A DNA stretch of 59,721 nt, taken from the IMG/VR virus record IMGVR_UViG_3300033153_014453, positions 1-59,721 of that record, one strand, 5' to 3'. Position numbers and translations under genes: made by a program. Below the pieces are notes generated by a model. That model did no database searches and had not been told where the DNA came from. It saw nothing but the letters and a program-made list of their open reading frames with translations. This DNA is from a virus. The stretch's first letter is position 1, and each line of letters starts with the position of its first letter. This document shows positions 3,860 to 59,721 of the stretch, piece by piece.

Positions 3860-4260
3860 TTTTTATTCTCCCTTCTGTTGTTTTCTGACTTTGGACGTTC
3901 GTCTATTAGATTCTTTGGATCTATTGAGATGATTCCATTACATAAGTAAAGATCGTATGAAATAATAATTGGTTCTACTGGTGTTTCATTAATATATTTA
4001 ATCTTTTCCGGTTCTATGTAAAAATTAGGACACCAATCTCCGCAAGGAGCAAGAGAATAAAATGGAGAGGTATAAACAACGGAATAAGTATAAGTATGGG
4101 GATCTTGAACATAAACATGGGAATAATCCTGGTTTTGACACTCGAAATAGTCCCCACAGTAAAGATTTGTTATTTTTATTCCCTGCTTACATAATTGAAG
4201 TTTGAATTTCCCCGCCCGCTCTATGTGAAGAAAGCCATTTTTATCTATTTTTATTTTCAT
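3856..4260 (-). CDS. Hypothetical protein, tandem paralogue A
   Basis: 134 residues, starting MKIKIDKNGFLHIERAGKFK. The same opening recurs in the gene directly upstream (4266-4580), and both share a CGDWCP motif in the middle and LIDER near the C-terminus. A tandem duplication is therefore visible. The Cys pair in CGDWC may bind metal or form a disulfide. Function unknown. Confidence 0.75.
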   Translation of the reverse strand: MKIKIDKNGFLHIERAGKFKLQLCKQGIKITNLYCGDYFECQNQDYSHVYVQDPHTYTYSVVYTSPFYSLAPCGDWCPNFYIEPEKIKYINETPVEPIIISYDLYLCNGIISIDPKNLIDERPKSENNRRENKK

Positions 4261-4265
4261 TTTAA

Positions 4266-4580
4266 TTATCCTTCTAAACGTTCATCTATAAGTTCTTCGG
4301 GCTTAAGAATATACAAAATGTTGCATATATTTACTATGATACAATCATCTTCAGTTTTATTTGGCTCTATAAAACTAGGACACCAATCTCCGCATTGTTT
4401 AAAGTCAAATGATAGCACAAGTGTAGAATCTGATGGTTGTGTTGAGTTATTAGTTGCTGAATAAAAAACTTTACCCAGTGGATTTATAGCATTTATTATT
4501 CCATTTTTACAAAATTGAGCTTTAAACTTCCCTGCTCGTTCTATAAAAAGAAAGCCATTTTTATCTATTTTTATTTTCAT
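4266..4580 (-). CDS. Hypothetical protein, tandem paralogue B
   Basis: 104-residue paralogue of the adjacent gene, with MKIKIDKNGFLFIERAGKFK at the start, CGDWCPS in the middle and ELIDER near the end. It is shorter in the central loop. Its start lies 20 bases inside the end of the SPOUT methyltransferase gene, so translation is probably coupled. Function unknown. Confidence 0.75.
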   Translation of the reverse strand: MKIKIDKNGFLFIERAGKFKAQFCKNGIINAINPLGKVFYSATNNSTQPSDSTLVLSFDFKQCGDWCPSFIEPNKTEDDCIIVNICNILYILKPEELIDERLEG

Positions 4581-4998
4581 TTTTTACCATCCTATCATAA
4601 AGCACAACATTAACGGTAGCGGCTAAGTTCATGCACCCATTAGTGGGAATATAAACAATATCCCTACACCAGGGCAAAATCCTGTTTCCTAAGGTTGCAT
4701 CTTCAGCCCCGAATACATAAAAAGCTCTTTTGGGGTGCTCATATTCGGGCAGCGGGATACCTTCATCAATTAATTCAATAGCGACGGGAACACAATCATA
4801 GGGCAAAACCGAATGGAGGTCATCAACACGCAAGAAAGGAATACGTTGATAGTGTTTCATTGCATCAGTAAGGGTCCATCCGATACGTCTACCACTAATT
4901 ACTAACATTGCAGCATTGAAAACACCAACCGCTCGCATTGCTGCGCCAACGTTGTTTTTATTTTTTGGATTGTCTAATGCTATTATTGCGTAGCCCAT
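4561..4998 (-). CDS. SPOUT-fold RNA 2'-O-methyltransferase (SpoU/TrmH family)
   Basis: 145 residues, the size of a minimal TrmH/TrmL-type catalytic domain without an extra RNA-binding domain. Motif 1 is NPKNKNNVGAAMRA (residues 10-23), motif 2 is FYVFGAED (93-100) and motif 3 is IPTNGCMNLAATVNVVLYD (117-135), which forms the SAM-binding knot in this family. It would methylate a ribose in tRNA or rRNA. The motif 3 residue usually Ser before Leu-Asn is replaced by MNL here, so activity is not certain. TrmL-like wobble methylation is one option. Confidence 0.88.
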   Translation of the reverse strand: MGYAIIALDNPKNKNNVGAAMRAVGVFNAAMLVISGRRIGWTLTDAMKHYQRIPFLRVDDLHSVLPYDCVPVAIELIDEGIPLPEYEHPKRAFYVFGAEDATLGNRILPWCRDIVYIPTNGCMNLAATVNVVLYDRMVKNENKNR

Positions 4999-5033
4999 TT
5001 TGAATCTTAGTTAATGATTATCATTTAGATATT

Positions 5034-5159
5034 TTATTTTTGTTTTTCATTTTTCTTGATCCATCTTCCTTTCTTATCTCTTGGCCAGTTTTTTCTTTCA
5101 TCTTTCATTATTTTGTATAGATATTCTTTATATCCATTTAGCTGAAAATTATTCTCCAC
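5034..5159 (-). CDS. Possible 41-aa small gene (GTG start) or 24-aa gene from ATG 5108
   Basis: The 206-base gap between two genes holds an open frame that ends at 5034. From ATG 5108 it encodes MKDERKNWPRDKKGRWIKKN and a short basic tail. The RD-KKGRWIK pattern is common in short phage proteins and NUMOD-like modules. Extension to a GTG at 5159 would give 41 residues. There is no strong ribosome site, so this could be a gene remnant. Confidence 0.35.
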   Translation of the reverse strand: MENNFQLNGYKEYLYKIMKDERKNWPRDKKGRWIKKNEKQK

Positions 5160-5178
5160 CAATTATTATAGTTTCCAT
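5149..5178 (-). pseudogene. Remnant of the Cys-rich gene N-terminus
   Basis: ATG at 5178 opens METIIIGGE and then stops. The same ETIIIGGEE string begins the mature gene at 722-973 (MRSKKETIIIGGEE). The match is short but also visible in the DNA (TCTCCRCCRATTATTATRG). It looks like a broken duplicate. Confidence 0.4.
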
Positions 5179-5205
5179 TTTAATTCCCTTTCCTTCTGAA
5201 GAAAG

Positions 5206-5475
5206 TTAATACTCCAACATCTCCCTTGCCCTTTTCTTCACGGTTCGCAGTTGGTAAACCGTGCAAGGACAAGATTCAAGTTTTTTAGATCTCGGGAACC
5301 ATGAAAAACAAACATTGCATTGGACACTCGCCCCGAATCCAAGGCTTGTATTTAAAGGACATTTACGACGCTGGATCTCTGGCGGTTGTTTGAGCCACTT
5401 TTTTACTGCTCTTTTTTCTCCTTCACTGAGCCCAACTTTATCCAAGCCCAATGTCTTCAAAGTTCTCCGTCCCAT
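5206..5475 (-). CDS. Cys-containing hypothetical protein, 89 aa
   Basis: Basic protein with KCPLN, CNVC and CPC cysteines (residues 39-72), probably one zinc site, preceded by a Lys/Arg helix. The codon use is more GC-rich than in its neighbours, with cgg/cgc-type codons. No family recognised. Confidence 0.65.
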   Translation of the reverse strand: MGRRTLKTLGLDKVGLSEGEKRAVKKWLKQPPEIQRRKCPLNTSLGFGASVQCNVCFSWFPRSKKLESCPCTVYQLRTVKKRAREMLEY

Positions 5476-5548
5476 TTGAGGGCCTCTATGTTATTTTCAT
5501 TTTTTAACTCCTAGATTATTCTAAGGTTATTCTAAAACCTCTTATAAT

Positions 5549-5743
5549 CTAAGCCAACGAGACCATAAATAATCCATTACGCATCCACCACCAAGAGTAA
5601 AGATCCCACCAAAATACTCCCTGATACCATTTTCCACCTATTAAACAAGTATCCTTTTCGCACCAACCGAGATGTATTAATTGAATCTCGAAAGTGGAAG
5701 GATGCTCTCCTTCGGTTTTCATCTCGAATGGAATAATTTTCAT
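5549..5743 (-). CDS. Trp-rich hypothetical protein, 64 aa
   Basis: Contains seven tryptophans, six of them in residues 39-53 (KWYQGVFWWDLYSWWWM), and two cysteines. The start has an AGGAGAACTAGC leader. It is not long or hydrophobic enough to call a membrane protein with confidence. Function unknown. Confidence 0.6.
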   Translation of the reverse strand: MKIIPFEMKTEGEHPSTFEIQLIHLGWCEKDTCLIGGKWYQGVFWWDLYSWWWMRNGLFMVSLA

Positions 5744-5788
5744 GCTAGTTCTCCTAGTTATTATTATATTATATAGTTATTTACTACT

Positions 5789-6223
5789 TTAGCGCATAAC
5801 TCCTCGTTTTTCTCGTAAAAGTTCTAAAATAACTTTCCTCATAAGTTCTTTTTCTAAGGCTTTTTTCTTAGAAGAAGATCTTTTTTTCTTTTTAACATTT
5901 AAATGCTCGAAATCTGTTGTACGTTCTTTTTCTAAAGCCGCATCAAGAGAAGAAGAAGTTAAAGGATAAAGATTAATTAAATCCTCAGGAGTTTTTCCTG
6001 TAGGGATTACATGATTCTTTGGAGCAAGAAAAGAATTATCTTCATCTGAGTCTAGGAATTTTAGCTTGTAGTTATTGTTTATTTCTTCAATTACAAGAAC
6101 ACAATAACCTCTTTTTTCAGGTGGGTCTAGTAAAATGCCTAATTCTCCTTTTCTAGCAAAGCGTTTTATAGGAGAATAAAGCAAAGGATTGTAAGGTTTT
6201 AGTCTTGTTTTTGATTTTTGCAT
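5789..6223 (-). CDS. Hypothetical protein with basic C-terminus, 144 aa
   Basis: N-terminal half predicted beta-rich (RKGELGILLDPPEKRGYCVL, an SH3-like pattern). The C-terminal half is highly Lys/Ser/Arg-rich (NVKKKKRSSSKKKALEKE), consistent with nucleic-acid contact. No known family. It is spaced 13 bases from the membrane-protein gene upstream. Confidence 0.7.
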   Translation of the reverse strand: MQKSKTRLKPYNPLLYSPIKRFARKGELGILLDPPEKRGYCVLVIEEINNNYKLKFLDSDEDNSFLAPKNHVIPTGKTPEDLINLYPLTSSSLDAALEKERTTDFEHLNVKKKKRSSSKKKALEKELMRKVILELLREKRGVMR

Positions 6224-6236
6224 TTTAGTTAGGATT

Positions 6237-6437
6237 CTAATTAGGGTTAAAGAATTTTTCTATTAAGATATTTTTAATAATATGATAAGCAAGAAAAAGA
6301 AATAATCCAAGAGAAAAAAATTTGAGAAAAAGAATAAAATCAAGCTCGTGGTTTGTTAAAAGCATAATTAGTAAAGAAGCTAAAGCTATGTCTAAGATCC
6401 ATAGGCATTGAGATAGGAGCTTAAATAAGAGTTTCAT
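6237..6437 (-). CDS. Small membrane protein, two predicted TM segments
   Basis: 66 residues. Residues 5-27 and about 33-55 are hydrophobic (LSQCLWILDIALASLLIMLL and FILFLKFFSLGLFLFLAYHI). A short basic tail follows. Size and topology fit a small phage inner-membrane protein, but no lysis genes are nearby, so a holin role is not supported. It follows the non-coding 6438-6665 region. Confidence 0.65.
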   Translation of the reverse strand: MKLLFKLLSQCLWILDIALASLLIMLLTNHELDFILFLKFFSLGLFLFLAYHIIKNILIEKFFNPN

Positions 6438-6503
6438 TTATTGAGTTGTTCCTTTCATAGTAATTGATAATGTGTATGATAAGTTATTTCTTGTTAAAAT
6501 CCT

Positions 6504-6668
6504 TCTTAAGAACAAACCCCTTCCAGGCTATGGAATGCTTAGATAAGTATCTTAAAATAAGCACTAGGCCTTTCATCAAGAGTTTGTTCCAGGTGTCTCT
6601 CCAAGCGGGCGCTACTTATCATAGAGACTACCCAGGGGAGCAAAAAGTAGAAAACCAAGCAAGGTTTA
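6504..6668. ncRNA. Candidate structured RNA or regulatory RNA element
   Basis: This 228-base gap in a tightly packed gene region is more GC-rich than its surroundings and holds nested stems. GAACAAAC (6510-6517) pairs with 6582-6589 and encloses hairpin TTCCA/TGGAA (6521-6535) and hairpin GCTTA/TAAGC (6537-6562). A second domain pairs 6592-6600 with 6623-6632 (GGTGTCTCT with AGAGAC-T-ACC). A final AAACC/GGTTT hairpin lies at 6652-6666. The loop AGGCTA (6525-6530) can pair, with one bulge, with TAGGCCT (6565-6571), a possible pseudoknot. The strand is undecided. The family is not recognised. Confidence 0.5.
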
Positions 6669-7019
6669 AGATTTAGATCTTATTCTTATTTCTGGAATAT
6701 CTTTTGTTATTTCCATAACAGCAGTTTCTATTCCTTTTAACAAAAGCGTTGATAACACATTACTTATTGCTTGATACATTCTTTTTATGCTAGTTTTATT
6801 CAGAAGTTTTTCCATTTTTTCTATTTCTTCTGTTATATACTTAGGAATAGATACTTCTAAAAGGATCTTCTCTTGTTCATTAAGTTTAGAAGAGTTTTCT
6901 TTTGTTAATCTTAAAGCATCACTTACTATGAAAGCTAGGAAACTTATTTCTAAATTTTCAGTAGAGAAGTTTATATCTTTAAGCAAGGTTTTTGTATCTT
7001 TAGGAGTGATTTTTTTCAC
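6666..7019 (-). CDS. Helical hypothetical protein, 117 aa
   Basis: Predominantly alpha-helical, rich in Leu/Lys/Glu with alternating hydrophobics, no Cys or catalytic pattern. Starts 12 bases downstream of the 242-residue gene. Ends at the edge of the structured 6504-6668 region. Function unknown. Confidence 0.7.
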   Translation of the reverse strand: MKKITPKDTKTLLKDINFSTENLEISFLAFIVSDALRLTKENSSKLNEQEKILLEVSIPKYITEEIEKMEKLLNKTSIKRMYQAISNVLSTLLLKGIETAVMEITKDIPEIRIRSKS

Positions 7020-7030
7020 TGAGAGCTCCT

Positions 7031-7759
7031 TTAGGAAAAAGATAATTGTTTTATGAAATATTCTAAGTGATTTATTTTTTCTTTAAAAGGCTTAAGGTGC
7101 ATAGTTTCAGGAGAGGTTTTGAAGATTTTTACTACAGGCAAGAGTAAGTTTAGCTTATTTACTCCTGTTTGGGAGATTTTTAAATAAGCCCGAGTTGAGG
7201 TAAGGAAAGGAGTTAAGAGTAGTAAGAACTCATAACTTAGTTTAGAAATTAAATATTTAATTGTAGTATTTATCGGAGGATGGAAATTCATACAATTTCT
7301 ACAAAATAATGGATAAGTCATATAATTAAGACAATCTTTGTTTTTGTGAATATTAATAAGCTCGTCAAAAAATAAAGTTTTAAGATCTTCTAAAGATTTA
7401 CCTAAAAATGGCAAGGTGGAAGTTAAGTTTTTATTTAAGTTTTCTCTTTTTGGAAGTTTTATTATAAGATCATTTGCTTGATTCAAAAGGCCTGCTAAGT
7501 TTGTAAAGGTTTTTCTTTGTGTTTGAGCTATTTCTTCTAGTTCAATTAGAGTTAAATTATAACTAGGATCAAAGGATTTTTTCTTCATGCAATCATCAAG
7601 AATTGAGTACATAAAGCTAAAAACTATTTCAAGATATATTTTAGAAGTTTTATTAGCTCTTGCTTTTAGGATTTCTTCTTGAAGAGAGAGGTTAGATTTA
7701 AATACTTCTATGGTTTCTATTATTTCTTTTTGCTCTTTTTCCATTTTTTGTTCTTTCAT
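7031..7759 (-). CDS. Helical hypothetical protein, 242 aa
   Basis: Long alpha-helical protein; a Cys pair is seen in FCRNCMNFH (about residues 150-158), which might be half of a metal site. ATG at 7759 follows GAGGAAAAAA and was chosen over the internal ATG. It overlaps the acidic upstream gene by 62 bases in a different frame. No recognised family. Confidence 0.7.
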   Translation of the reverse strand: MKEQKMEKEQKEIIETIEVFKSNLSLQEEILKARANKTSKIYLEIVFSFMYSILDDCMKKKSFDPSYNLTLIELEEIAQTQRKTFTNLAGLLNQANDLIIKLPKRENLNKNLTSTLPFLGKSLEDLKTLFFDELINIHKNKDCLNYMTYPLFCRNCMNFHPPINTTIKYLISKLSYEFLLLLTPFLTSTRAYLKISQTGVNKLNLLLPVVKIFKTSPETMHLKPFKEKINHLEYFIKQLSFS

Positions 7760-7943
7760 TTTTTTCCTCTTTTTCTTCTTCTTCTTCCATTACATCTTCA
7801 GGATCGGTTAAATAAAACCAATCTTCTTGTTCTTCTTCATTGAAACAAATATCCAATGGGTCTTTTGGTTCTAAGGTAGCAAAAAAGGATTTTCCATTTT
7901 GAGTGAAGAAGTTAAAAAGACTTAGCATTTGCGCCCCTTTCAT
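7698..7943 (-). CDS. Acidic hypothetical protein, 81 aa
   Basis: The first half is ordinary, the middle is strongly acidic (EDVMEEEEEKEEKNE) and the end is basic. Such low-complexity acidic stretches occur in DNA-mimic proteins, but the evidence is weak. A GGGGCGCAAATG leader serves as ribosome site. Its last 62 bases are shared with the next gene. Confidence 0.6.
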   Translation of the reverse strand: MKGAQMLSLFNFFTQNGKSFFATLEPKDPLDICFNEEEQEDWFYLTDPEDVMEEEEEKEEKNERTKNGKRAKRNNRNHRSI

Positions 7944-8036
7944 TAGATTTAAGGTTAAGGTTAAGATTGGAATCTAAAAAAGAAAGGTTTTTTTATTTTT
8001 TATTTTTTAGCTTTTTAACTTTTTCTTACTTCTTAG

Positions 8037-8390
8037 CTAAACTTCTTGCTCCAAGATCCCAAGCTCTGCTAGCTTAGCAACAACCTTAGGATCGTTTTTT
8101 ATTTTTTCTTCTATTTTTTTGAGAAAACTCTCAGGAGAGGATTTTTCAAGAGGAGCTTTTTTATAGGAAGGTTTTTTCTTTAGCTTTATTATCTGATCTG
8201 GAATAGCATTAGCAACAAGAGTTGAGAACTCTTCATCTAGGGAATTTAATTTTTCCCTGTAGGCTTCTATTTTTTTGAAGCAATTTTTTATTGCTTCTTT
8301 TAATTCTTGTTTTTCTTTAAGGATCTCATTCATCCTTGTGCGTTGTTGTTTTATTATTAAGTGTTCTTTTTGATTTAGTGTAAGAGGCAT
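8037..8390 (-). CDS. Coiled-coil hypothetical protein, 117 aa
   Basis: Residues 1-60 form a heptad-rich coiled coil (LKEKQELKEAIKNCFKKIEA). A Lys/Pro linker and a second helix follow. It is the first gene downstream of the strong leftward promoter at 8472-8500, about 75 bases from the predicted start site, so it is probably made early and abundantly. Function unknown. Confidence 0.7.
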   Translation of the reverse strand: MPLTLNQKEHLIIKQQRTRMNEILKEKQELKEAIKNCFKKIEAYREKLNSLDEEFSTLVANAIPDQIIKLKKKPSYKKAPLEKSSPESFLKKIEEKIKNDPKVVAKLAELGILEQEV

Positions 8391-8436
8391 TTTTCTTACC
8401 TTTTGTTAAGAGGTTTTAGAAGGGGAGTTTTCGTTT

Positions 8437-8490
8437 TTCCATTTTATGCTACAAGGTGTAAAGTTTGGCGTATTATAGCATGAAATGGAA
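8437..8490. promoter_or_regulatory. 15-bp inverted repeat over promoter (putative operator)
   Basis: TTCCATTTTATGCTA (8437-8451) and TAGCATGAAATGGAA (8476-8490) are inverted copies matching at 14 of 15 positions, centre to centre 39 bp. The right arm covers the -10 edge and spacer of the leftward promoter; the left arm lies just downstream of the start site. This arrangement fits a dimeric repressor or a looped operator. Confidence 0.7.
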
Positions 8491-8500
8491 TAAATGTCAA
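8472..8500 (-). promoter_or_regulatory. Consensus sigma70 promoter, leftward
   Basis: On the minus strand TTGACA (8500-8495), a 17-base spacer, and TATAAT (8477-8472): a perfect match to the sigma70 consensus. It drives the gene at 8037-8390 and those to its left. Confidence 0.85.
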
Positions 8501-8560
8501 GTGGGAAATTCATTAAGGATTCTAATAAGTTAGGGAGAAGACTATAGGTCATAACTACTT

Positions 8561-8592
8561 AATAGCTACATTATAGTTACATTATAGCTATT
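8561..8592. repeat. ACATTATAG direct repeat within AATAGCTA inverted repeat
   Basis: ACATTATAG occurs at 8568-8576 and 8579-8587 (11-bp period), flanked by AATAGCTA (8561-8568) and TAGCTATT (8585-8592). A third copy of TAGCTACATTATA is at 9125-9137, between two of the paralogous genes. On the minus strand each contains TATAAT, so these may be -10 elements or binding sites. Confidence 0.6.
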
Positions 8593-8601
8593 AATTTATG
8601 T

Positions 8602-9072
8602 TTAAATTCTCAAATAAATAGGCATATCCTTCTTGTTTAATTGCTTAACCTTCCCATTCGGATAACAAATAACTACTTCAGTTATAACCTCAACTTCTTC
8701 TGCACATACAGTTGAGATACATTCCCCCATAGATATAGTAGCTTTACTTCTTTCATAAAACACGGAATAATTGTTATAAAAATCATCTAACAATGCTGGA
8801 TTACCTATTGCTAACGGTCGAATTATTTTTCCTTTTAGTTTTACAAGAAGTATCTTAACAGGGGAATTATGACGTTTTGCGTAACGTTTGGCTATGCCTG
8901 TGGTTGTAAACGGATCATTATAACAAAAAATCCCCATAGTTCCTTTGAGTGCTTTTGTTGTTTTTCCTTTTAAATAACGCTTGACATACTTTTTCGGCAT
9001 GCAGTCCTTTAGTAATGAATAATGGCCTTTTGAGACTAATTTGTAAGCATAAATTTCTTGTTCTTTTTTCAT
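8602..9072 (-). CDS. Paralogous family member 1, 156 aa
   Basis: First of three adjacent relatives. The shared N-terminus is AYKLVSKGHYSL, then a Cys, PKKYVKRYLKGKTTKA, then MGIF. The middle keeps a VKLLVKL-type strand and FYN; the C-terminus has CYPNGK where the others have FENGKE. The conserved K-S-H-Y-S and KRYL residues imply a common binding or catalytic surface. I do not recognise the family. It is the most divergent copy. Confidence 0.75.
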   Translation of the reverse strand: MKKEQEIYAYKLVSKGHYSLLKDCMPKKYVKRYLKGKTTKALKGTMGIFCYNDPFTTTGIAKRYAKRHNSPVKILLVKLKGKIIRPLAIGNPALLDDFYNNYSVFYERSKATISMGECISTVCAEEVEVITEVVICYPNGKVKQLNKKDMPIYLRI

Positions 9073-9169: not shown

Positions 9170-9613
9170 TTATCTTATTACCTCTTTACCATTCCTAAAC
9201 ACTTTAACAATTTCAACTGGCCTAACTGCATCTACTACATAAGTCCCAGTAAAACTTTGAAAATCTTTTATTGGGTATCTTATGTTGGAACATTGGCATG
9301 TAAGTAGTTTCTTTATATGATCAGTGTAGAATTGTTCAACCTTATCAACAGGGCCAATACTTATTGGTATGTAAATATTTCCTATTATTTCTACCATTAG
9401 AATTTTAGTTATCTTACTATCTGCTAAACTCCATAACTTAGCTGGTTGGATTGCTTGTTTTTCTGTAGCATAAATAAAAGTCCCAAGGGTATTTTTAGGA
9501 GCCCTAGTTATTTTGTTTAATAAGTATCTTTTTCTGTAGTTTTTTGGATAACATTTCTTATATAGAGAATAATGTCCTGCCGAAACTACTTTATAAGCTA
9601 TTTTACCTTTCAT
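9170..9613 (-). CDS. Paralogous family member 2, 147 aa
   Basis: Shares AYKVVSAGHYSL, YPKNYRKRYLLNKITRA, LGTFIY and a final VFRNGKE with the genes on either side. Starts three bases after the gap from member 3 and has AAGGAAGATAAAA as ribosome site. Function unknown. The three copies with different middles suggest diversification after tandem duplication. Confidence 0.75.
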   Translation of the reverse strand: MKGKIAYKVVSAGHYSLYKKCYPKNYRKRYLLNKITRAPKNTLGTFIYATEKQAIQPAKLWSLADSKITKILMVEIIGNIYIPISIGPVDKVEQFYTDHIKKLLTCQCSNIRYPIKDFQSFTGTYVVDAVRPVEIVKVFRNGKEVIR

Positions 9614-9616
9614 TTT

Positions 9617-10048
9617 TTATCTTCCTTTCTTTTTTGTTTCTTTTCCATTTTCAAATACATGTAAAACTTCAATAGGTTTAATCACATCTGCCAAGTGGGT
9701 ATCCAAGCGAGAAGAAAAATCATTAACCCAAAATCTTACATATTTGATTTTATATTTTTTGTAAAATTCTTCTAAATCATCAACAAACCCAACCCTAATT
9801 GGTATGTAAATATCACCAAGCACTTCTACTCTTAGGACTTTTGTTATTGTATTTTCGGTAGACGATCTTACTTTAGCTTTATGGATTGCTTCCTTTAATG
9901 TTTTATGGATAAAAATTCCCATACTATTTTTAGGTGCTTTTGTTATTTTATTTAATAAATACCTTTTTCTATACTTTTTAGGATAAGAACAATTGCGTAT
10001 TGAATAATGGCCCTTAGATACTACCTTATAAGCTATTTTTCTTTCCAT
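9617..10048 (-). CDS. Paralogous family member 3, 143 aa
   Basis: Shares AYKVVSKGHYSI, YPKKYRKRYLLNKITKA, MGIFIH and VFENGKE with members 1 and 2. Closest to member 2. Its start overlaps the end of the basic zinc-finger-like gene by 23 bases. Function unknown. Confidence 0.75.
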   Translation of the reverse strand: MERKIAYKVVSKGHYSIRNCSYPKKYRKRYLLNKITKAPKNSMGIFIHKTLKEAIHKAKVRSSTENTITKVLRVEVLGDIYIPIRVGFVDDLEEFYKKYKIKYVRFWVNDFSSRLDTHLADVIKPIEVLHVFENGKETKKKGR

Positions 10049-15588: not shown

Positions 15589-15620
15589 TTTTTGCTCCTT
15601 TCTTTCTTGAGGTTAATAAA

Positions 15621-15668
15621 AACAAAAAGGCCCTTAGCAGTTATTAACTAATAACTACTAAGAACCTT
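15621..15668 (-). terminator. Terminator-like hairpin, leftward
   Basis: Stem of AAGG/CCTT, CTTAG/CTAAG and AGTTATTA/TAATAACT (15627-15668) followed on the minus strand by TTTTTGTTTTT. It shares the CTTAGCAGTT core with the terminator at 13978-14024. It separates 15313-15588 from the gene-free region to the right. Confidence 0.75.
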
Positions 15669-16394
15669 ACCTTGTTGCTTATTTGATGAATTAAATTTAA
15701 AATACATTCGACTTCTCTTTTCTGGATTTTTCTGTATCTTATCTTTTCTTTTTCCAAAAGTCAAGCATTTTTTCAGTTTTTTCTTAGATTCCGGGAAAAA
15801 ACTGAGCAATTTTTTGTTCGAGGATTCTTAATGATTTCAAGAGGTTACTGACCTAAAGTGTAAAAGTGTGCTTTTTAAGGACTAATAGGGGGTTTATGGC
15901 AAAGGGAGTGAGGTAGGGTATGGAAGACTTAGGTATGATTGGGAAGGCTTAAGAAGGAACATAATGGGCTATAAAGGATTAGGAAGGCTCCCTAAGAGTG
16001 GAACAAAGCGGCAATAGTGGAATATGAGTAGTAAGTGTACTAATACATACTATATATATATTATTATTATTATTTATTAGTATATATTAGTATTTATTAG
16101 TATTCTTACCCTTTCCTCCCTTTAACCCAATCTTCCTAAGTTTAACTAACCCTTCCTAACCCATGACCCTTCTAGTCCTTAAAAAGCAAGGTTTCGCATT
16201 TTACCTCGATAACCTATTGATTTCACTCATGATCCAGGTTTACAAAAATGCTCACTTTTCCAGCGATAGAAAAAAGAAAGAATTCTAAGATTTAGAGCAA
16301 AGTAAAGGAAAGAAAAAATTAAAGAAAAGAAAAATAAGCAAGGAAAATAAGAAAAAAGAAAAATAAGAAAAAGAAAAATTAAGAATAAAGGAAT
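15669..16394. other. Gene-free region with long imperfect inverted repeat
   Basis: No convincing gene here. The stretch holds an imperfect inverted repeat (15797-16259) centred on an AT-rich TATATATATTATTATTATT core; the left arm is purine/G-rich and the right arm pyrimidine-rich. The flanks at 15669-15790 and 16262-16394 are low-complexity A/T. It may be an origin, a long hairpin RNA or a protein-binding region. Confidence 0.6.
15797..16259. repeat. Imperfect inverted repeat, about 460 bp in total
   Basis: Three matched segments nest in order: AAAACTGAGCA (15798-15808) with 16249-16259 (10 of 11), GCTTTTTAAGGACTA (15870-15884) with 16173-16187 (15 of 15), and 16031-16052 with 16088-16109 (19 of 22). 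The first two have identical 61-base separations on each arm. The left arm carries about 83 extra bases between core and centre. Confidence 0.75.
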
Positions 16395-16428
16395 AAAAAA
16401 TCTCCCAGGTAAAAATAACCTGGGAGAT
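16395..16428 (-). terminator. Rho-independent terminator, leftward
   Basis: ATCTCCCAGGT (16400-16410) pairs with ACCTGGGAGAT (16418-16428); TTTTTT follows on the minus strand. It closes the two-gene unit at 16447-17048. Confidence 0.85.
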
Positions 16429-16446
16429 AAGAAAAGAGAAAAATTA

Positions 16447-21169: not shown

Positions 21170-22336
21170 ATGACTATAATAGAAAACGAAGTAGATCTAA
21201 TAGGCAAAGAAGACATCGCTTTTGGTGATTCCTCACAAACCTGGGATCGTAAAGGTTACACAGGTACTACTGTTCCTGTTCATTACATAGATGCATCTGT
21301 AATTCCTGCTCCTACTTCTTTAGGAGGTTTCATAGGAGATCACTTACATGCTCAAAACACAGATACATCTACTACTGCGAGTTCTTACGTAATAGGTTCT
21401 AAACTAGAACTTTCTTCTAGTGGTCTTACTGCTAAGAGAACTTTTACTTTCCCTGATTCAGGAAATCAACAATTAGTAGGCTCTAATGACTTAGCTTCTA
21501 CTTCTAACTCAAAAGGAGCTTCTTTAGTAGGTTTAGAAGACAGTGGAAGTTATTACTCAAGTGATAACATAGAAGATGCTTTACAAGAAGTAGGTTATTC
21601 TATTTACACTTTAGAAAGCTCTACTTTTAACCGAGGAATGAAAATAGGCTTCAAGCTAGGTTATTCTTCTTCCGATACCATCACCATCGGAGGTGGAATC
21701 TGGGCTCATGCAGGTACTACTAACCAACATGTAAAACTTACTTCTCAAATAACCTTTACCCTAGGACCAAGTGGTTCTAATAGTGCTTCTTCTAACTTAG
21801 GAGCAAATGAAATTCATTACATCTACATAGATGACTCTGCTGTAGTAGCTCTTGCTTCTAGTACATTAACTGAAAATGAGTTTTTAAATTCTACCATAGC
21901 TCCTACCTACAACCATGCAAAAGTAGGTTTCTATAATGGTAATGATAGATGTATAGGAGCAATAAGAACAGATGATTCTGGAAATATATTACAATTCTCA
22001 GTTTTTGGAGATAACTTCTATCGCTATGCTTCTCCTTTAGCTGAATTCACAACTGCTGCTGCTCCTGTTGCTTATAGCTCTCTTGATGTCTCAAGCTCGG
22101 TTCCTAGATTTGCAACCAGGGTTCGTATAAGAATAACAAACGTAACAGGTGGAACTAGTTTGTTTTTTGATACTTCTTCTACAAGTGTAACTCCTGAGGC
22201 TTATACTATGGACTCTGCTAATAAAGCCTATACTTTTGATGTTCCTACCAACAACACTCAGTCAATCTACTGGTATGCAAGTGCTGCTAATAATGTAGAC
22301 ATAGACGTTGTTGGTTATTATATGGATGAGTTATAA
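21170..22336 (+). CDS. Fibre-like virion protein
   Basis: 388 residues, beta-rich and Ser/Thr/Gly-rich. The segment SKGASLVGLEDSGSYYSSDN, followed by IEDALQEVGYS, is a recurrent motif of phage tail and head fibre proteins. No catalytic residues. Its location before portal suggests a head or connector fibre. The stop is immediately followed by the portal ATG. Confidence 0.7.
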   Translation: MTIIENEVDLIGKEDIAFGDSSQTWDRKGYTGTTVPVHYIDASVIPAPTSLGGFIGDHLHAQNTDTSTTASSYVIGSKLELSSSGLTAKRTFTFPDSGNQQLVGSNDLASTSNSKGASLVGLEDSGSYYSSDNIEDALQEVGYSIYTLESSTFNRGMKIGFKLGYSSSDTITIGGGIWAHAGTTNQHVKLTSQITFTLGPSGSNSASSNLGANEIHYIYIDDSAVVALASSTLTENEFLNSTIAPTYNHAKVGFYNGNDRCIGAIRTDDSGNILQFSVFGDNFYRYASPLAEFTTAAAPVAYSSLDVSSSVPRFATRVRIRITNVTGGTSLFFDTSSTSVTPEAYTMDSANKAYTFDVPTNNTQSIYWYASAANNVDIDVVGYYMDEL

Positions 22337-35116: not shown

Positions 35117-35668
35117 ATGGATGAGAAGTTAAAATTATATAATCTTAGCAAGCCTTATATTAATACCGGAGATTGTATTATTTGGAGATCTTATTCTACT
35201 ATAGGAAGTTTAATTAGGTTTTTCTCTAAAGCAGATGTAAATCATGCTTCTTTAGTTATAAAACCAAAAGAATATGTAGGGTTAGTAGATAGGAGATTTC
35301 TACTAGAAGCTCTTGAATTCGGAGTAGTTCCTAGATTGCTTTCTGAAAGGTTGAAAAATTTTAAAGGAAAAGTGTGGTGGTTGCCTTTAAAGAAGAAATA
35401 CGAAGATAAAAGAAATTCAATAGCTGAATGGGCTATTCAAGAAATAGCTAAAGGAAAAGGTTATGATTATAAAAGCCTTTTCAAGCAAATCTTAGGAAGA
35501 GTCTCAATAGAAACTGGAAAATATTTTTGTTCAGAATTCGTGCATGCTTCTTTAGTTTTTGGTGCTAGTATTGCGCTACCTATGAAAGCAGCTAGACCTG
35601 GAGATTTAGAAAATTTAGGAGTTTATGAAAAAAGAATTCTTATTTATGATAACATAGGAGAAAGCTAA
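35117..35668 (+). CDS. YiiX-like permuted NlpC/P60 hydrolase
   Basis: 183 residues with the permuted papain-like layout: VNHASLVI (His43), ALEFGV (Glu64 or 67) and KYFCSEFVHASL (Cys138, Ser139). Such proteins are thiol hydrolases of peptide or acyl bonds. Overlap-free and directly after the M23 gene, so probably a second wall-active enzyme. N-terminal GDCII is typical of the family. Confidence 0.85.
   Translation: MDEKLKLYNLSKPYINTGDCIIWRSYSTIGSLIRFFSKADVNHASLVIKPKEYVGLVDRRFLLEALEFGVVPRLLSERLKNFKGKVWWLPLKKKYEDKRNSIAEWAIQEIAKGKGYDYKSLFKQILGRVSIETGKYFCSEFVHASLVFGASIALPMKAARPGDLENLGVYEKRILIYDNIGES

Positions 35669-59602: not shown

Positions 59603-59721
<119 letters not shown>

Follow-up and report, generated by a model that had tools for sequence, protein, structure and literature searches.

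The window analyzed here, i.e., the whole stretch of DNA of 59,721 bases, is an IMG/VR record whose two ends are identical (positions 1-114 and 59608-59721), and thus likely represents a complete genome of about 59.6 kb. PHROGs recognize a terminase large subunit, a portal and a DNA polymerase, and the uncultivated phage is thus a tailed one. Its non-structural genes run leftward (0-17 kb and 48-60 kb) and the remainder, including terminase and portal, rightward (17.7-48 kb). Among the leftward genes lies an intercistronic gap of 228 nt (6438-6665, read on the minus strand, i.e., that of the leftward genes), flanked upstream by an ORF of 117 aa (6666-7019, minus strand) and downstream by an ORF for a hydrophobic protein of 66 aa (6237-6437, minus strand); no family was found for either. 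The following ORF (144 aa, 5789-6223, minus strand) has homologues in three related phages (G004, G002, and G017) and served as synteny anchor. The gap had been singled out as atypically long and GC-enriched, and it is both: the median distance between listed ORFs is 17 bases, at least 200 bases occur in only 9 of 89 spacings, and the G+C fraction is 0.43 at 6505-6632 vs 0.30 at 6001-7000. About 1.8 kb upstream, at 8472-8500 on the minus strand, there is a sigma-70-type promoter match (12/12, TTGACA-17-TATAAT with TG before the second hexamer; a match to the consensus only), itself situated in a 211-nt gap with a minus-strand z of -4.8.

Several other features of this genome deserve mention in their own right. 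A stretch of 858 nt without listed ORFs (15589-16446; z about -10 on both strands) holds a 93-nt inverted repeat (15798-15890 and 16167-16259, 71%) and is a candidate replication origin or regulatory region. Two pairs of direct repeats (9308-9607 and 9743-10042, 69% alike; 4173-4263 and 4493-4583, 84% alike) are, as read from their sequences, neighboring gene duplications. The phage also encodes a SpoU-type RNA methyltransferase (4561-4998, Pfam E 1.8e-16), whose relatives reside in nine viral contigs (50-68% identical) that have little else in common with it.

Protein-coding conservation within the gap, which the original prediction had named as evidence that would count against a structured RNA, was checked on an ORF of 70 codons that crosses the gap on the plus strand (6464-6676). 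Such a length is rare in shuffled sequences (0.0002), and this is what speaks for a small protein gene. However, its codon score (-0.16) lies close to the mean of shadow ORFs (-0.21), away from that of real short genes (+0.17), its third codon position is the richest in G+C whereas in the genes of this phage that position is the lowest, no ribosome-binding site is visible by eye and no homologues were found (best E 1 in phages, none in Pfam, best E 0.18 in PHROGs), so that a plus-strand protein appears very improbable. Given this shadow-like codon use, base composition and lack of homologues, the gap is very probably non-coding. Nor does it resemble a known RNA, as had been anticipated: ARAGORN reports 0 tRNA or tmRNA genes in the window, and Rfam (4227 families) gives 0 matches at the gathering threshold, a permissive search (E up to 10) adding only one weak chance match at the edge of the gap (6663-6698, 17.2 bits, E 1.9).

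Relatives of the gap sequence itself were not recovered. Blastn against phages returned only short pieces of 29-39 nt (best E 0.7), plasmid records held no homologue, and exact patterns taken from the gap occurred nowhere but in the gap, both in viral contigs and in genomes. A covariance model built from the gap (R1) likewise matched only the gap itself when run on the window, G001 (a further related phage), G002, the nine SpoU loci and 16 related records; a 15-base match in G001 was judged to be chance. Since neither covariance-model nor sequence searches gave a homologue, the covariation expected for this element was not obtained. A limited literature search, at the level of titles and abstract beginnings, brought up no paper describing the element or these phages.

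Pairing and strand of the gap

All of the pairings originally proposed are present in the sequence. The closing stem (GAACAAAC at 6510-6517 with GTTTGTTC at 6582-6589) is Watson-Crick in 8 of 8 positions and encloses two hairpins (TTCC 6521-6524 with GGAA 6532-6535, and 6536-6541 with 6558-6563); the loop AGGCTA (6525-6530) can form six pairs with TAGGCCT (6565-6571), leaving one bulged G; a second long hairpin (6592-6600 with 6623-6632, nine pairs, one bulge) and a third small one (6653-6657 with 6663-6667) follow. What does not hold as well is the strand, as the fold had been described on the plus strand and the minus strand is the likelier one, given that both neighbors are minus-strand genes. 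On the plus strand, the 147-nt element reaches a z of only -0.25 (79 of 200 shuffles at least as good) and its 80-nt core a z of -2.43 (2 of 200 as good), whereas the same core (6510-6589) on the minus strand has a z of -3.67, equaled by 0 of 200 shuffles; a repeat estimate gave -3.54 (minus) vs -2.60 (plus). The advantage of the minus strand arises from G-U pairs by which the 8-pair closing stem reaches 13 pairs on this strand only. If the fold matters, it would thus be that of a sense-strand RNA. An exceptional stability was not borne out: the whole 228-nt gap is unremarkable on either strand (z -0.77 plus, -1.00 minus), and a scan of the genome in 2984 windows of 80 nt, covering both strands, has 52 below a z of -3.5, so the structure is moderate rather than exceptional for this genome.

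Read on the minus strand, the predicted fold begins with stem A (6592-6632), in which GGUaGUCUCU (6632-6623) pairs with AGAGACACC (6600-6592) through 9 pairs with one bulge and a 22-nt loop. After a single base follows hairpin B (6509-6590), predicted identically from 6510-6589 and from 6509-6590. Its base is the 13-pair closing stem (6590-6578 with 6521-6509), followed inward by an asymmetric loop (6|3), the short helix AGGC/GCCU (6571-6568 with 6528-6525), a second loop (2|5), an eight-pair stem (6565-6558 with 6541-6534) and a four-pair apical stem (6554-6551 with 6547-6544). The loop segment AUGAUAAGU of stem A (6622-6614) could pair with ACUUAUCAU within 6484-6475; the latter stretch (6475-6484, minus strand) is a 10-base perfect complement of 6614-6623 (inverted repeat I12), a matter of complementarity only, and the loop together with the last base of the stem could in this way close a pseudoknot around everything.

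The Shine-Dalgarno-like GAAAGGA of the 66-aa ORF (6450-6456, minus strand) is predicted to be partly paired, and hiding of this ribosome-binding site is not significant (unpaired probability 0.17 vs 0.39 with shuffled upstream sequence; 11 of 60 shuffles as low). A 17-base complement (16/17) between the leader of this ORF, including part of the ribosome-binding site (6452-6468), and the upstream coding region (6918-6934) was also noticed; judged by hand, it is at about chance level in such an AT-rich stretch.

Folded RNA in related phages

Related phages were retrieved with individual genes of the window as bait: the DNA polymerase gave G001 (IMGVR_UViG_3300028840_002094) and G002 (IMGVR_UViG_3300033149_002333), the capsid 26 loci including G004 (IMGVR_UViG_3300033153_001808), and the PDDEXK gene G017 (IMGVR_UViG_3300028840_002839). 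The baits 7031-7759 and 21170-22336 found nothing, and the capsid found nothing in genomes. Gene content and order are common to the window, G002, and G004. The capsids of G002 and G004 are each 67% identical to that of the window, and the part in G001 is 59% identical. The terminase of the window is 49-51% identical to those of G002 and G004, which are 66% identical to each other; by this terminase comparison, the phage of the window is an outgroup to G002 and G004. G001 and G017, records of one sample, have 144 identical bases at their contig ends (G001 35393-35536, G017 1-144) and are therefore very probably one phage with a genome of about 53 kb.

These records contain curiosities of their own. 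In G001, a Group I intron (L006:17661-17900, minus strand; Rfam RF00028, 66.1 bits) directly precedes the rest of the capsid ORF, and the DNA polymerase (L003:11-3349) measures 1112 aa vs 803 aa in the window, with an insertion of ~330 aa that resembles an intein. In G017, the two halves of a tRNA occur in reversed order (L055:4218-4294), making it a candidate permuted tRNA gene in a phage: the 3′ half (~4218-4254) comprises an anticodon-stem strand, T arm, acceptor strand and CCA, and the 5′ half (from 4264) an acceptor strand, D arm and anticodon-stem strand. Joined in silico, the halves form a cloverleaf that ARAGORN calls a tRNA with an unclear anticodon, and the candidate adjoins a normal tRNA-Arg(tct) at 4348-4420. 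Among the papers listed on permuted tRNAs and phages, judged by titles and abstract beginnings, none was plainly on phages.

Three of the relatives each carry one copy of a folded RNA, situated between genes of the corresponding non-structural region. It is located at L048:2354-2424 (plus strand) in G004, within a folded gap (L048:2282-2452; 149 nt folded, z -4.2), at L010:12755-12848 (minus strand) in G002, also within a folded gap (L010:12728-12873; 112 nt folded, z -4.2), and at L055:3219-3291 (plus strand) in G017, where the gap (L055:3070-3353) has z values of -3.84 (coding strand) and -4.14 (opposite strand) and holds several further hairpins upstream of the element. In all three it lies on the coding strand of the surrounding genes and combines a long closing stem with a conserved inner core, about UCUCCUUaCCkCnGAG ... 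ACGAkGAyGmGGU. The gaps of G004 and G002 align with a score of 50 (shuffled 18.7±3.1, 0 of 200 as high) and those of G002 and G017 with 29 (19.5±2.7, 1 of 200), whereas G004 and G017 reach only 25 (20.2±3.1, 22 of 200). When only G004 and G002 were used to build a covariance model (R2), the gap of G017 came first among unseen sequences (24.8 bits, E 5.5e-4, in 256,417 bases from 18 sources). In an alignment of the three made by hand, closing stem by pairing and core by sequence, 98.5% of cells pair and both sides change in 16 of 23 pairs, compared with at most 57% pairing once the partners are slid; these figures lean towards structure owing to the way in which the closing stem was aligned. 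Rfam has no match for these RNAs at gathering thresholds, and in a permissive search of two of the three gaps matches were found only far below family thresholds. Judged from sequence and predicted pairing, this is a real folded RNA that is absent from Rfam.

The gene that follows the RNA differs among the three phages, being a 50-aa ORF in G004, a 126-aa ORF in G002 and one for a DUF7873 protein in G017, and this speaks against regulation of any single gene. Pairing of its loop with a ribosome-binding site was considered and rejected: it involves seven bases each in G004 (UCUCCUU) and G002 (CUCCUUU), but 128 of 2000 and 180 of 2000 shuffles, respectively, did equally well, and in G017 only four bases pair. 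Another structured-looking gap of G004 (L049:8800-8920) was dropped with a z of +1.08 on the coding strand. Among further related records, many of them fragments, 0 of 25 match R2 and 0 of 28 match R3 (a further model made from the relatives); a weak R3 match in L012 scored 14.7 bits (E 1.6).

Possible roles of the gap

Tentatively, we consider the gap to be a part of the leftward polycistronic messenger that is non-coding, structured and active in cis. Transcribed on the minus strand within the leftward operon, it would fold into the 9-pair stem A and, directly thereafter, hairpin B with its 13-pair base; such a segment would separate expression of the 117-aa ORF from that of the downstream 66-aa and 144-aa ORFs, could form a stable block that serves for processing or protection of the messenger, and might also keep the ribosome-binding site that follows within a long-range fold. 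The strand of both neighbors, the lack of coding signal (shadow-like codon use of the plus-strand ORF included) and the better minus-strand fold, with its 13-pair stem on that strand only, support this reading, as do the position downstream of the 12/12 promoter match, the unusual length of the gap, and the demonstrably conserved RNA that fills the same slot in G004. Against it stand the ordinary stability of the whole gap on both strands, the non-significant hiding of the ribosome-binding site, the missing homologue and hence covariation, and the different genes that follow the RNA in the relatives. The main rival, which we regard as possible but somewhat doubtful, is that the gap holds a diverged member of the family of G004, G002, and G017 with a function independent of the neighboring gene; such an RNA may be released from the operon transcript as a small RNA by cleavage, or may act on RNA polymerase or on the messenger in its entirety. 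In its favor, the order gap, small ORF, homologue of 5789-6223 is common to the window and G004, stem A sits directly before the long closing stem as a hairpin does in G004 and G017, the loop asymmetries look alike, with (6|3) P2 (2|5) P3 in the window, (7|3) P2 (2|5) P3 in G004 and (6|3) P2 (3|7) P3 in G017 (G002 departs from this layout by a 17-nt inner hairpin), and the outgroup position makes a faster loss of sequence likeness plausible. However, the alignment score with the family is 18 vs 18.8±2.9 for shuffled sequences, neither R2 nor R3 picks out the gap even with filters off (best score within it 1.8 bits), and the conserved core is absent. The greater distance of the phage could explain the loss of the core, without proving it. 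The loop layout, given a closing stem, is expected in shuffled interiors with ~5% chance for the window, ~5% for G004 and ~3% for G017, the ranges having been chosen after the sequences were seen (a first descriptor matched by chance too often, and a stricter one was used with controls). Tree distance between window and G004 is not significant (159/1000), a test that is uninformative for shared architecture as it also fails between true relatives. The window's gap does lie on the sense strand in the corresponding non-structural region, in a slot different from those of G002 and G017. With no sequence likeness, no core and silent models, we do not file it as a family member.

That the gap has no function, being an intergenic spacer with hairpins formed by chance or left from an old insertion, appears unlikely and ranks third, behind the cis-acting segment and the diverged copy. 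The moderate stability (52 of 2984 genome windows go beyond z -3.5, and the whole gap stays between -0.8 and -1.0) and the lack of conservation in any record searched agree with it; that none of 200 shuffles folds as well as the minus-strand core and that three relatives retain a folded RNA in comparable gaps do not, and unused stretches of 200 bases are rarely kept in phage genomes. A separate plus-strand RNA with the fold originally described is highly improbable: its pairings exist and its core reaches a z of -2.43, but the minus fold is stronger, no promoter-like site was found on the plus strand within the gap, and the RNA of the relatives is on the coding strand in 3 of 3 cases.

Taken alone, the window offers a plausible, not exceptional, folded spacer. 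It is conceivable, though we hold this with no great confidence, that each genome in this group of uncultivated phages holds a single copy of a new structured RNA, of which the window's gap is the most diverged known copy, with the layout kept and the core sequence lost; placed beside different genes in different phages, such an RNA would act independently of its neighbor. If the family is real and includes the window, a small RNA is kept despite strong sequence divergence and moves among genes, and such retention would suggest that the RNA serves infection in general, not the regulation of a single gene. A covariance model usable on larger collections is available from the three relatives.

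Comparison with known systems

The gap and the RNA of G004, G002, and G017 are alike in genome region and strand, appear alike in their long closing stem and loop asymmetry, and agree partly in the hairpin upstream of the closing stem (G004 and G017) and in the slot (G004); they are unlike in that the gap lacks the conserved core and is matched by neither R2 nor R3. Intercistronic hairpins of phage messengers, which serve as processing or stability sites, are stable sense-strand structures that separate genes belonging to one operon, and in this the gap resembles them; it differs by its greater length, its second stem and the asymmetry of its inner loops. A further comparison is offered by the put RNA of phage HK022, which, according to parts of a published account (PMC9378689), measures ~70 nt, forms two stem-loops downstream of the early promoters of this lambdoid phage, and is an antitermination RNA that suppresses termination by contacting RNA polymerase. 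In these parts put is placed at, or ~270 nt from, early promoters, unlike the gap, from which the closest strong promoter match is ~1.8 kb away. A search of the minus strand at 4900-8700 gave no terminator-like site, so a need for antitermination is not evident, and the two are likened by description of layout, Rfam having given no hit for the gap. Both put, which belongs to an early operon, and the gap have two stem-loops, lie outside coding sequence and are read on the operon strand, and by our comparison put would be the nearest described system in layout.
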